DNA of 64,000 nt, from NCBI RefSeq assembly GCF_041022165.1, contig NZ_CP163302.1, forward strand, positions 2,976,001-3,040,000, given 5' to 3'. Of the stretch, positions 15,805 to 41,392 are shown piece by piece. The position numbers and the translations under genes are program-made. The notes beneath the pieces were generated by a model, which was not told the DNA's origin, ran no database searches, and was given only the letters and a program-made list of their open reading frames with translations. Numbering within the stretch: the stretch's first letter is position 1; each line of letters begins with the position of its first letter. This DNA is from Sinomonas sp. P10A9. Its GTDB lineage: Bacteria; Actinomycetota; Actinomycetes; Actinomycetales; Micrococcaceae.

Positions 15805-16683
15805 ATGAACGTCTTAGCAATTGGAGCAATCCTTGCGATCGTGCTTCCAGTCGCCTTCCTGACCTGGAGCATCGTCACACCAGACCGGAGCGCGCGAGCC
15901 GCGATCGAGAAGAACCTCGGACTCCTCAAAGCCGGGCCGAAGCATTCCACGACGTCGATCTCGGAGGCCCTCACGGCTCTGTCTCGCAGGATCACTCCCG
16001 TCGGCTACACCGCATGGCTCGACGGAAAGCTTGCAGGCGCCGGTCGGCCTCGGTCATGGCCCCTGGACCGCGTGCTCGTCGCCAAACCGCTTCTGGCCCT
16101 CCTCGGGCTCTTCCTCGGCATACTTGTTCTGCTCCCCCACCCGGACGGCCCTCGCTTCCTCCTGCTGATCGCCCTCGGAGCGCTGTTCTACTTCGTGCCC
16201 GACATCCTCCTGAACAACTCCGCCCAGAAGAGGCGGCACGCGATGCAACTGGCGCTGCCCAACATGCTCGACCAAATGCTCATCTCGGTCGAGGCAGGCA
16301 TCGGATTCGAAGGCGCCATGGCTAGGGCTTCTGAAAGCACGACGGGTCCATTGTCCGATGAATTCGTCAGGACACTGCAGGATATCCAGGTGGGCCGCTC
16401 ACGCCGCGAGGCCTATACGGATCTGGCCGCTCGGGCCAGCTTCCCGGACATCAGGGCGTTTGTTCGATCCATCGTCCAAGCCGACCAGTACGGCATCGCC
16501 ATCGCCAAGGTCCTCAAGACGCAGGCCCAGGAGATGCGCCTCAAGCGACGGCAGCGGGCCGAGGAGCATGCCATGAAGATTCCCGTGAAGATCCTCTTCC
16601 CCCTGATTTTCGCGATCCTTCCGGCCATGTTCATCATCATCCTCGGCCCAGCAATTATGGGCATCATCAAGACCTTCTCGTAG
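15805..16683 (+). CDS. tadC: TadC-like inner-membrane platform protein
   Basis: 292 residues with the T2SSF-type motif ALPNMLDQMLISVEAGIGFE, cytoplasmic helices and a final pair of membrane segments ending IIILGPAIMGIIKTFS. It is the partner of TadB. The ATG follows TGAGGAGC with good spacing, ten bases after tadB. Confidence 0.86.
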   Translation: MNVLAIGAILAIVLPVAFLTWSIVTPDRSARAAIEKNLGLLKAGPKHSTTSISEALTALSRRITPVGYTAWLDGKLAGAGRPRSWPLDRVLVAKPLLALLGLFLGILVLLPHPDGPRFLLLIALGALFYFVPDILLNNSAQKRRHAMQLALPNMLDQMLISVEAGIGFEGAMARASESTTGPLSDEFVRTLQDIQVGRSRREAYTDLAARASFPDIRAFVRSIVQADQYGIAIAKVLKTQAQEMRLKRRQRAEEHAMKIPVKILFPLIFAILPAMFIIILGPAIMGIIKTFS

Positions 16684-37902: not shown

Positions 37903-38271
37903 TCAGAGCACCTCCGGAGCCAGCGAGACGATCTTCATGAACTTCTTGTCACGCAGCTCGCGGCCGACCGGGCCGAAGATGCGTGTGCCACGGGGGTCGC
38001 CGTCGTTCTTGAGGATGACTGCAGCGTTCTCGTCGAACTTGATGTAGGAGCCGTCCGCGCGGCGGCGCTCCTTCTTGGTACGGACGACGACGGCCTTGAC
38101 CACGTCGCCCTTCTTCACGTTGCCGCCAGGGATCGCGTCCTTGACGGTGGCGACGATCACGTCGCCGATGCCTGCGTAGCGGCGGCCAGATCCACCGAGA
38201 ACACGGATGGTGAGGATTTCCTTCGCACCCGTGTTGTCGGCGACCTTGAGCCGCGACTCCTGCTGAATCAC
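37903..38271 (-). CDS. rplN: 50S ribosomal protein L14
   Basis: 122 residues: [40 protein letters not shown] and [20 protein letters not shown]. It is the first gene of the spc-type string. In most bacteria rpsQ lies directly upstream; here about 2.5 kb separates them, so rplN needs its own promoter in 38272-38548. Confidence 0.96.
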
Positions 38272-38548
38272 TTCTACTCCTTACGTCACGCCGGTTCTCG
38301 TACCGCGTTGCAGCATGCGGCCGAGCCTTGCGGAACGGTTGTTGGGGCGTCTCTCGACCCGTCTGGATGTGGCCAGAACGGGCCTGAATCACCGTGCCGA
38401 GCGCATTTGTCCCCTTCCTGCCCGAGAGCAGCGCCGGGGCGCTCCCCTTCGGCAGAAGGGCATTATGCGGTGGCACGATGGTTCACGAGGTACTGACGGC
38501 ATGGCGAAGCCAACCGTACAAGCTCAATATCGTACCACGGCGCTCCTG
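38272..38548. other. rplN upstream region
   Basis: 277 bases without a gene, ending at the 59-bp repeat array. It should contain the promoter of the rplN-rplO operon. A CATAAT hexamer on the minus strand near 38463 resembles a -10 box but lacks a clear -35 partner. Confidence 0.4.
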
Positions 38549-38763
38549 TCCACCCCGAACGCTCACGGAGCAGCCGGCGCAGGCGGGAACGGCCGACGCC
38601 GCTCATCTCCACCCCGAACGCTCACGGAGCGCCGGCGCAGGCAGGAAACGCCCGGCGCCGCTCATGTCCACCCCGAACGCTCACATCCACCCCCAACCCT
38701 CGCCTCCACCCCGAACGCTCACGGAGCAGCCCGCCCAAGCGGGAACGCCCGACGACGCCGCTG
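38549..38763. repeat. 59-bp tandem repeat array
   Basis: Two complete 59-bp units (38549-38607 and 38608-38666) start TCCACCCCGAACGCTCACGG and continue into a GGAAC...GCCGCTCA tail. They are followed by two truncated units of about 19 bp (38667, 38686) and one further full unit (38705-38763). Units are directly adjacent with no unique spacers, so this is not a CRISPR array. Confidence 0.8.
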
Positions 38764-38789
38764 GGGTCCCGACGTCGTGCTCCCACTGG

Positions 38790-38848
38790 CAGTGCTGCGA
38801 TAGCGGACAAGCGCCCTTCAAGCGCGCTTGTCCGCTACGGCAGCACTG
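38790..38848. terminator. 23-bp stem hairpin at the 3' end of the AbiEi-like gene
   Basis: CAGTGCTGC (38790-38798) pairs with GCAGCACTG (38840-38848), and TAGCGGACAAGCGC (38801-38814) pairs with GCGCTTGTCCGCTA (38824-38837), with one 2-base internal mismatch. The gene's stop codon falls in the loop. The core TTGTCCGCTACG recurs in the hairpin at 40610-40664. Confidence 0.75.
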
Positions 38849-39864
38849 CTGGCTGGTCGCAGGCCCATCTGGATGAGCTTCGCGCGAAACTGGGCAGGCC
38901 TTTCAAGATCGGACCAATCGAGCCGCAGCACGGGATGGTTGAGACCGAGGAGCCGATTCTCCCGCTTCTTCTCGCGGCGGATGATCTCGCGGGGGTCCTC
39001 GCCGTGCGTGAGCTCGGTGCGGAAGTACTTGCCCCAGCCATCGAACTCGCCCACCGGCTCGAGCTTCCCCGGAGCCGTCACTGCACGGTTCCCCTCAACG
39101 TCGCCCCAGTAATAGTCAGTGCGTCCCACGAATCCGAGCTGGTCGAAGTGTTCCGCCTGGAGCATCGGTTCCGGGAAGCCGAAGAGCAGCATCAGCGCCC
39201 GCCCCACGGACTCACCCGGCGACTCGGCACCCGAACGTGCCAAGAGCGCGATCCGCTCCGCCCGAGCTCGGTGGGAGCGGTGCGGAAGCGCTGCGATCGC
39301 ATCGGCCACGGCAGCGCGGTCAAGCAGCGGGACATCGGGCTGACGGCGAAGAACCCCATCTGCGACGGTCAGCGCCCGTGCGAACTTCGCCGTAGCAAGA
39401 ACCTCCGCAAGGGCATCGGCGAGCGGGACGGCTTCGAACTCGCCGACCGCGATTGACTTGATGGTGTCGTGGTGGTGCCGTCGGATCTGGTGCGAACCAC
39501 GTTCTCTGGCCTGCCTTGCGGACGCCGATTCCCCCCGGACGTCAAAGGTGCTCGGCCGCACGCCAAGCCTGCTGGTCGTCGATGTCGCAACGTCTACCGT
39601 CAACGGCGCCTTCACCGTGGGAACCCCATGAAGGAACAAGGCGGTCTCGCCGCAGAAGACCACGCCTGGATTGGCCAGCGCATGCGCCGCCAACGTCAGT
39701 CGGAAACGGTCATCGGTCTCGAGGCCGCTCCACACGCCGGTCGGGACGCAGAAACCACGGCGCAACCTCGCGATCGACCCGGCCGCGAACTGGCTCCGCG
39801 GATCGGCCGAAGGCCCGTGGAGGTCGCGGCGCGACGTGTCAATGAGATGTCCGAGTGGCTCCAT
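38818..39864 (-). CDS. AbiEi-like protein with DUF559/PD-(D/E)XK-like C-terminus
   Basis: About 348 residues. The N-terminal half (SIARLRRGFCVPTGVWSGL, ANPGVVFCGETALFLHGVP) resembles AbiEi-family proteins. The C-terminal half has GFVGRTDYYWGDV and EPVGEFDGWGKYF, spaced like the Asp and Glu-x-Asp of DUF559/Vsr-like nucleases. No AbiEii partner is present. The ATG at 39864 (MEPLGHLIDTS) is chosen; ATG 39900 or a GTG at 40119 are possible. The last would add octapeptide repeats (GVGAGPKP) encoded by the 24-bp array, which looks artefactual. It lies between rpsQ and rplN in the same orientation. Confidence 0.65.
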   Translation of the reverse strand: MEPLGHLIDTSRRDLHGPSADPRSQFAAGSIARLRRGFCVPTGVWSGLETDDRFRLTLAAHALANPGVVFCGETALFLHGVPTVKAPLTVDVATSTTSRLGVRPSTFDVRGESASARQARERGSHQIRRHHHDTIKSIAVGEFEAVPLADALAEVLATAKFARALTVADGVLRRQPDVPLLDRAAVADAIAALPHRSHRARAERIALLARSGAESPGESVGRALMLLFGFPEPMLQAEHFDQLGFVGRTDYYWGDVEGNRAVTAPGKLEPVGEFDGWGKYFRTELTHGEDPREIIRREKKRENRLLGLNHPVLRLDWSDLERPAQFRAKLIQMGLRPASSAAVADKRA

Positions 39865-40030
39865 GACCACGAGTTTCACGGTCCAGAACGCGGCGCGCAT
39901 GTCCGAGTCCGCGCTATGTGGACAACACGCGCTACGGTCAGTCTGTGGAGGACGAGGGACCGAGTCCAGTCCATGGGCCCGCGCTGCGCAGTCGTGCCGA
40001 CGGACCCGAGCGGACTGACCGACAGGCCCG

Positions 40031-40320
40031 GCGCCCACGCCCGGCTTAGGCCCAGCGCCCACGCCCGGCTTAGGCCCAGCGCCCACGCCCGGCTTAGGCC
40101 CAGCGCCCACGCCCAGCACCTAGCCCGGCGCCCACGCCCGGCTTAGGCCCAGCGCCCACGCCCAGCACCTAGCCCGGCGCCCACGCCCAGCACCTAGCCC
40201 GGCGCCCACGCCCAGCACCTAGCCCGGCGCCCACGCCCAGCACCTAGCCCGGCGCCCACGCCCAGCACCTAGCCCGGCGCCCAGCACCTAGCCCGGCGCC
40301 CACGCCCAGCACCTAGCCCG
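40031..40320. repeat. 24/25-bp tandem repeat array (two interleaved unit types)
   Basis: All units start GCGCCCACGCCC. The 24-bp type continues GGCTTAGGCCCA (copies at 40031, 40055, 40079, 40128). The 25-bp type continues AGCACCTAGCCCG (40103, 40152, 40177, 40202, 40227, 40252, 40296), plus one 19-bp copy with a 6-bp deletion (40277). The isolated 24-bp unit at 40128 among 25-bp units shows shuffling by recombination or slippage. Confidence 0.9.
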
Positions 40321-40342
40321 GCGCCCAAGTCCAGCACTCGGG

Positions 40343-40578
40343 CCCGGCACCCCCGGCACCCCGGGCCCGGCACCCACCAGCCCGGCACCCCCGGCACCCC
40401 GGGCCCAGCACCCACCAGCCCGGCACCCCCGGCACCCCGGGCCCAGCACCCACCAGCCCGGCACCCCCGGCACCCCGGGCCCAGCACCCACCAGCCCGGC
40501 ACCCCCGGCACCCCGGCACCCCGGGCCCGGCACCCACCAGCCCGGCACCCCCGGCACCCCGGGCCCGGCACCCACCAG
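40343..40578. repeat. 38-bp tandem repeat array with G-quadruplex potential on the minus strand
   Basis: Six units, at 40343, 40381, 40419, 40457, 40495 (46 bp, with 8 extra bases) and 40541. On the minus strand each reads, in order, GGTGGG, TGCY, GGG, CCC, GGGG, TGCC, GGGGG, TGCC, GGG: five G-tracts of three or more with 3-4-base loops. Copies differ mainly at one A/G position. 38 is not a multiple of 3, so a coding role is unlikely. Confidence 0.92.
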
Positions 40579-40609
40579 CTCAGCGCCCCGGGCCCGGCAC
40601 CCCGGCGAA

Positions 40610-40664
40610 GCGCTGACGTAGCCGACGAGCGCGCTTGAGAGGGCCTTGTCCGCTACGTCAGCGC
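40610..40664. repeat. 13-bp perfect inverted repeat
   Basis: GCGCTGACGTAGC (40610-40622) and GCTACGTCAGCGC (40652-40664) flank a 29-base loop. The right part, CTTGTCCGCTACGTCAGCGC, matches CTTGTCCGCTACGGCAGCAC in the hairpin at 38790-38848, so the two belong to one family. Confidence 0.7.
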
Positions 40665-40710
40665 CGCCCGAGTAGTGATTGTGCGGAGCAGGGATTGCGG
40701 CGCAAAGGCG

Positions 40711-40746
40711 GAAGGCCCGCCCCCTCCGAAGAGGGAACGGGCCTTC
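40711..40746 (-). terminator. terminator after rpsQ
   Basis: GAAGGCCCG (40711-40719) pairs with CGGGCCTTC (40738-40746), with an inner CCCTC/GAGGG stem and CGAA loop. It starts 36 bases after the rpsQ stop and would end the S10 operon here. Confidence 0.85.
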
Positions 40747-40781
40747 GCAGCACTGCAGGGATCCGCGGGAGCCGCGAGTCC

Positions 40782-41075
40782 TTACTTGGCCTTCTCGAGG
40801 ATCTCGACAAGGCGCCACCGCTTGGTGGCGGACAGCGGCCGGGTCTCCGCGATGAGAACAAGGTCGCCGATACCGGCGGAGTTGTTCTCATCGTGGGCCT
40901 TGCGCTTCTCGGTACGGCGGATGACCTTGCCGTAAAGCGAGTGCTTCACGCGGTCCTCAACCTCGACGACGATCGTCTTGTCCATCTTGTCGGACACGAC
41001 GTAGCCGCGGGCGGTCTTGCGCTGACCGCGCTCCTGGGCAGAAGCGTTCTCCGTCACGTTGTTCTCTTCGCTCAC
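40782..41075 (-). CDS. rpsQ: 30S ribosomal protein S17
   Basis: 97 residues. A short polar N-terminal extension precedes [20 protein letters not shown]; then come [13 protein letters not shown] and [20 protein letters not shown]. Its start overlaps the rpmC stop. It is the last gene of the S10 string in this genome. Confidence 0.95.
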
Positions 41076-41392
41076 TTGGCGTCCTCCTCGGCAGCCTCGG
41101 CCTGCTCGGCCTTGGCAGCCTTCTTAGCCGCCTTCTTGTCGTCCTTCGCCTCGACGACCGCCGGAGCGGCCTCGGCACGAATGCCGAGCTCGCGCTCGCG
41201 CAGGATCGTGTAGATGCGGGCGATGTCCTTCTTGACCGCACGGAAGCGGCCATGGTTCTCGAGCTGGCCGGTGGCCGACTGGAAGCGCAGGTTGAACAGC
41301 TCTTCCTTGGCCTTCTTGAGCTCCTCGAAGAGGCGCTCGTTGTCCAGCTGGTCGAGCTTCTCAGCCGTCAGGTCCTTCGAACCGACTGCCAT
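41072..41392 (-). CDS. rpmC: 50S ribosomal protein L29 with Ala/Glu/Lys tail
   Basis: The core ([58 protein letters not shown]) is typical. A low-complexity tail of about 35 residues follows, making it 106 residues rather than about 65. The ATG at 41392 is chosen because AAGGTGG lies 9 bases before it; an ATG at 41398 overlapping the rplP stop is the alternative. Confidence 0.95.

Follow-up and report, generated by a model that had tools for sequence, protein, structure and literature searches.

A G-tract-rich 38-bp tandem array beside ribosomal genes of Sinomonas sp. P10A9 as a probable length-variable minisatellite

The spacer between rpsQ and rplN in the genome of Sinomonas sp. P10A9 contains a tandem array of 38-bp units, most of it missing from the one other genome of the species that we found. 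The explanation that we consider likely is a GC-rich minisatellite (VNTR) of variable length, which probably expanded recently in a weakly constrained spacer and whose units would be gained and lost through slippage or unequal recombination. It appears to lack a selected function. The window, that is, the whole stretch of 64,000 nucleotides analyzed here (positions 2,976,001 to 3,040,000 of contig NZ_CP163302.1), holds the following features around the array, with coordinates counted from its first letter.

37903–38271, minus strand: rplN, ribosomal protein L14 (Pfam PF00238, open reading frame).
38514–38538, minus strand: block upstream of rplN, recognized by its conservation.
38537–38722, minus strand: third tandem array, with units of 59 bp and 19 bp, directly adjoining the conserved block that precedes rplN (TRF, alignment).
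38801–38837, no strand: palindrome that overlaps the accessory gene's stop codon (sequence).
38818–39864, minus strand: accessory gene, 348 aa plus stop codon, with the 38-bp array upstream (open reading frame; the AbiEi-like name comes from the sources of some homologs).
40026–40352, minus strand: 25-bp array, 13.4 copies, G-rich on the minus strand, abutting the 38-bp array (TRF, alignment).
40342–40593, minus strand: 38-bp tandem array, composed of five full units and a divergent one, plus an 8-bp extra piece and a partial unit (TRF, G-tract chain, unit split).
40610–40664, no strand: imperfect palindrome between the 38-bp array and the rpsQ hairpin, sharing TAGCGGACAAG with the palindrome at 38801–38837.
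40711–40746, minus strand: terminator-like hairpin after rpsQ (fold of 40705–40770: MFE −40.5 kcal/mol, z −4.0).
40782–41075, minus strand: rpsQ, ribosomal protein S17 (Pfam PF00366, open reading frame).

TRF assigns the array a period of 38 bp, with 6.4 copies and 90% matches over 40342–40593, and the unit split confirms the head-to-tail succession of units of tens of bases that characterizes minisatellites and VNTRs. A preliminary description of this DNA had already noted such an array, with six units of five G-tracts each and loops of 3–4 bases. The count of five tracts holds for the five complete units, which on the minus strand carry tracts of 5, 3, 3, 3, and 4 G separated by loops of 4, 5, 4, and 3 bases; the loops thus span 3–5 rather than 3–4 bases. 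The sixth unit (40556–40593) is divergent, with four tracts and one 12-base loop. A quadruplex motif in every unit, the hallmark of CEB1-like repeats, is thus found in the five full units, and only the divergent sixth, taken alone, does not fit. The units also differ from one another by a T/C change, and the array further contains the extra piece of 8 bp and a partial unit of 16 bp. The roughly 30 G-tracts within 240 bp of the same description were counted as 31 tracts of 3–5 G between 40343 and 40578, lying, as it stated, on the sense strand of the neighboring ribosomal genes; with loops of up to 7 bases allowed, they form a single unbroken quadruplex-type chain (40343–40573). The description overlooked the abutting 25-bp G-rich array.

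The density of this chain was compared with 464 kb of the single-contig, 4.29-Mb genome, consisting of the window, 18 evenly stepped 20-kb stretches, and two stretches placed on purpose at palindromes. Among the 67 quadruplex-type matches in this sample, the second-longest chain has 7 tracts against the 31 of the array, and the array also has the most extreme mean G4Hunter score over 252 bp (−1.29, against −0.99 at the next separate place). When the whole array was shuffled with its dinucleotides preserved (n = 1000), the longest chain had 6.6 tracts on average and 17 at most. Similar shuffles of two units (n = 5000) contained a quadruplex motif in 77% of cases, so that the motif in a single unit is unsurprising given the composition of the unit. 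The unusual feature is the repetition of the 38-bp unit, not the unit itself.

Other identities were considered for the array. A dispersed repeat was rejected, as the array is not scattered in its own genome: at E up to 0.001, matches were confined to the array site, the abutting array, and one place of 34 bp. A coding repeat was also rejected. Since a period of 38 bp is not divisible by 3, the frame shifts with every unit and the units cannot hold one reading frame; the open frames across the array resemble the chance frames of GC-rich DNA. Rfam at gathering thresholds gave no match in the whole window. The array is not named in the titles or abstract openings of the literature searched, among the matches listed, and the sole match for Sinomonas together with tandem repeats concerns Stenotrophomonas by its title.

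Evidence for a VNTR comes from the comparison within the species, which rests on two genomes, that of the window and a draft of about 20 contigs (G038), the only conspecific found. The order of elements is the same in both: rpsQ, hairpin, palindrome, array, accessory gene, palindrome, third array, and rplN. In the draft only a stub of the 38-bp array is present, roughly two units long (a match of 89 bp, against about 250 bp in the window; TRF, 29 bp × 2.4), and the alignment shows the 25-bp array to be missing. The spacer from rpsQ to the accessory gene measures 494 bp in the draft and 918 bp in the window, and the whole distance from rpsQ to rplN 2177 bp and about 2511 bp. By eye (the aligner paired the stretches differently), both genomes share the divergent unit, on the rpsQ side of which the draft has a standard unit and the window only a short piece. 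The presence of the divergent unit in both genomes points to a change in the number of units and not to the insertion of a complete element. Change is not confined to this array or to one direction. In the alignment, the third array is longer in the draft, with a different pattern of copies of its 59-bp units, and a 26-bp array at 773.8 kb of the genome of the window (G000:C1) is rearranged between the two conspecifics, with a net change of +18 bp across the region that matches. Arrays therefore vary in length and content within this species, in both directions, and the 38-bp array differs in unit number between strains, as expected of a VNTR, in two genomes of which one is a draft. As G038 is a draft and the only conspecific compared, a collapsed assembly is possible there; the draft does resolve the comparable 26-bp array.

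Comparison within the genus covered 13 other Sinomonas species, 12 of which have a readable rpsQ–rplN interval (that of G011 runs off its contig). Neither the 38-bp array nor the 25-bp array of the window is present in any of these 12 intervals. Tandem repeats of other kinds do occur there: TRF reported at least one row in six of the 12, namely unrelated 31–32-bp arrays in G005, G006, and G009, an unrelated 25-bp unit in 2.5 copies in G008, and short arrays in G003 and G007. A search of the genus with 40020–40610 hit 10 of the 15 genomes. Beyond the own genome and the draft there were 14 such matches, 30–170 bp long and 70–91% identical; nine of these loci carry GC-rich tandem repeats of about 12–30 bp, and in one sequence that was found twice (L153 and L161) the chains comprise 9 and 7 tracts. 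The copy-number comparison called for by the preliminary description has thus given about two units in the conspecific and none in the 12 congeners.

Tandem arrays also occur elsewhere in the genome of the window. At a TRF score of at least 120, seven of the 20 sampled stretches contain an array of 21–26-bp or 42-bp units (6/18 of the evenly spaced stretches and 1/2 of those chosen). Most of these arrays fall inside some stop-to-stop open frame, and, since open frames say little at 69% GC, we make no claim that they are intergenic. Repeats of 21–22 bp (or 42 bp) lie at 16499–16585 in L170, 14342–14426 in L175, 5281–5419 in L179, 19564–19700 in L181, 5531–5750 in L184, and 11489–11598 in L186, which are different places in the genome; some similar units occur in more than one of them.

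As to mechanism, the array is located in a spacer that would be under low constraint, with the rpsQ hairpin on one side and the accessory AbiEi-like gene on the other. Units would be gained here, or lost in the relative, by replication slippage or by unequal recombination between neighboring units. When single-stranded, the G-rich strand could adopt a quadruplex or a GC-hairpin fold, and either fold would stall or misalign replication and so favor changes in length. The G-rich minus strand is probably the lagging-strand template: the first gene of the contig, recognized by its sequence, is presumably dnaA, and, with dnaA at contig position 1, this strand would be exposed as that template if the terminus lies near the middle. 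The five full units have G4Hunter means of 1.26–1.34, and quadruplex formation by the array is possible. The G-strand of the units is also C-rich (GGGCCC, CCCGGG), which favors hairpins, and the ViennaRNA model for RNA, with quadruplexes allowed, still picks hairpins throughout, at −18.6 kcal/mol for one unit, −44.2 kcal/mol for two, and −156.0 kcal/mol for the array. Within 170 bp, the G038 stub still has 14 G-tracts, grouped into chains of 5, 4, and 5, so that quadruplex capacity has not been lost within the species. Instability does not require quadruplexes, as the rearranged 26-bp array lies outside the 15 longest G-tract chains listed.

A narrower version of this explanation would make the array a bacterial counterpart of the human CEB1 minisatellite, whose unit is about 39 bp. 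Ribosomal genes are normally very highly transcribed, and quadruplexes on the G-strand of the lagging-strand template beside them would directly drive expansion and contraction, the length of the array then recording quadruplex-linked replication trouble. We regard this as rather unlikely. CEB1 is reported to form G-quadruplexes and to be unstable in yeast lacking Pif1, both by experiment, whereas the G-rich hRAS1 minisatellite neither forms quadruplexes nor becomes unstable without Pif1, so that G-richness alone proves nothing (PMC2673046). CEB1 as described there resembles the 38-bp array as a polymorphic, G-rich minisatellite with quadruplex signature motifs in each repeat, but its quadruplexes and instability were established at the bench and the present array is known from sequence (PMC2673046). 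The 38-bp array differs further in lying in a bacterial spacer and in having a G-strand that, being C-rich as well, favors hairpins. Bacterial tandem repeats of G-tracts, mostly non-coding and variable in unit number, have been described as GGGNATC-type repeats in Xanthomonas and Nostoc; they consist of 7-base units spread genome-wide, with four units preferred, and the loci near them are reported to have increased, not decreased, stability (PMC4692102). Our array, with its 38-bp unit and single site, does not belong to this type. Given the behavior of hRAS1 and the greater stability reported near the Xanthomonas repeats, we keep quadruplex-driven instability conditional. Should it apply, the array would be a handy natural bacterial system in which to test whether quadruplexes destabilize repeats outside eukaryotes.

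The simpler minisatellite reading also has bacterial precedents. The MIRU-VNTR loci of mycobacteria are minisatellites that differ in unit number from strain to strain, as the 38-bp array does between the two genomes compared here; the latter is unusually dense in G-tracts.

The preliminary description had suggested a possible working role for the array, as a back-up terminator, a fork barrier, or a platform for proteins or recombination. It had placed the array just after the rpsQ terminator, inside the ribosomal super-operon. The array does lie downstream of the rpsQ hairpin in the rpsQ–rplN gap, but it is a separate element, 117 bp away, with the palindrome at 40610–40664 in between. A hairpin directly after rpsQ is present in 12/12 of the other Sinomonas with a readable interval, so that it probably terminates the rpsQ unit. 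A consensus scan of 38200–41150 that requires a T-run did not list the hairpin at 40711–40746; it gave three terminator-like sites, none of them within the array, which accordingly lacks the hairpin and T-run of a terminator. On the other side, the block at 38514–38538 is conserved in the six congener intervals inspected, the window, and G038, and its conservation suggests a possible spc operon promoter; a consensus promoter scan, weakly informative in a GC-rich actinobacterium, found nothing. With a probable terminator at one end and a possible rplN promoter at the other, the array probably lies in a spacer between two transcription units rather than within one.

In this position, sense-strand quadruplexes, in RNA or in DNA, could act as a transcription insulator, halting polymerases that leak past the rpsQ hairpin and shielding the accessory gene and the rplN promoter. 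The strand of the G-tracts, their place between rpsQ and the next gene at about 190 bp downstream of rpsQ, and the quadruplex motifs retained in the G038 stub would all suit such a device. We nevertheless find it improbable: all 12 readable congeners have the hairpin without the array, most of the array is gone from the conspecific, hairpins beat quadruplexes in the RNA model, and any quadruplex-type match occurs in only three of the 12 congener intervals (one each in G004, G007, and G013, that of G004 being on the other strand). The existence of the hairpin without the array and the near loss of the array in a conspecific weaken any terminator or insulator function, and absence from the congeners together with the stub leaves a conserved role as terminator, insulator, or protein platform unsupported and is better explained by repeat instability. 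A dense quadruplex motif beside essential genes thus need not be regulatory, when one comparison within a species removes most of it.

Equally improbable, in our judgment, is a recombination platform in which the G-rich array provokes breaks that drive the turnover of the whole spacer, in which the accessory gene is gained, lost, and inverted. The model for this is pilE of Neisseria gonorrhoeae, which has a single short quadruplex with a small transcript and silent donor copies. This quadruplex is reported to promote recombination and, like our array, is a G-rich element on one strand of a spacer upstream of a gene, the array being long where the pilE element is short. The interval does change often within the genus, the accessory gene being present in six of the 12 readable congeners and inverted in two of these six (G003 and G012). 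None of the 12 carries the array, however, so the turnover of the spacer does not need it. Least probable is that the length of the array is an assembly artefact, to which repeats are commonly prone, given that the genome is one contig, that the units differ from one another (T/C change, 8-bp extra piece, divergent unit), and that the conspecific holds the same divergent unit.

The rpsQ–rplN interval itself, which changes often and in which an accessory gene comes, goes, and flips, may hold more biological interest than the array. It measures about 2511–2514 bp in the window, 1725–1964 bp in the six congeners with the accessory gene, and 417–672 bp in the six without it. In named loci of Arthrobacter, Paenarthrobacter, and Pseudarthrobacter it is 346–489 bp, except in L054 (131 bp), in Kocuria and Rothia 360–574 bp, and in named Microbacteriaceae loci below 60 bp. 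Glutamicibacter uratoxydans (L060) has a gap of 3438 bp, another large insertion at the same place. The S17 proteins of the window and of Sinomonas notoginsengisoli share 93% identity. A contig labeled Stenotrophomonas maltophilia P13 (L032) encodes S17 and L14 proteins 79% and 89% identical to those of the window; the contig probably represents contamination from an actinobacterium, or else its genome is misnamed.

The accessory gene looks like a mobile, flipping gene, judging from its distribution. In G012 it is in two pieces, and close homologs (58–64%) are found elsewhere in the genomes G001, G005, G007, G009, and G010. The named close homologs of its product are Sinomonas proteins, and searches of the protein against Pfam and NCBIfam gave no match. 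A reading of 433 aa, starting inside the 25-bp array, was rejected in favor of the ATG at 39864 (348 aa), because the homologs in the same species (P0001) and in S. flava (P0003) are 348 aa long and are covered over 100% of the query. Upstream of the gene, at 39917–39925, lies TTGTCCACA, which we take to resemble an actinobacterial DnaA box.

Two related palindromes, at 38801–38837 and 40610–40664, flank the accessory gene and the arrays, and in several, but not all, congener copies of the gene palindromes lie near an end. Copies of the palindrome pattern also occur at 773767–773803 and 3178723–3178759 of the genome (G000:C1), and the 26-bp tandem array starts 39 bp past the first of these. 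In the third array (38537–38722), the 59-bp units repeat TTCGGGGTGGA. A 21-base piece of this unit, with up to three mismatches, was found only in this array, three times. By eye, the TTCGGGGTGGA element itself is seen once in each of the six congener intervals inspected, exactly in two and with one change in four, and it stands directly ahead of the conserved block that precedes rplN.
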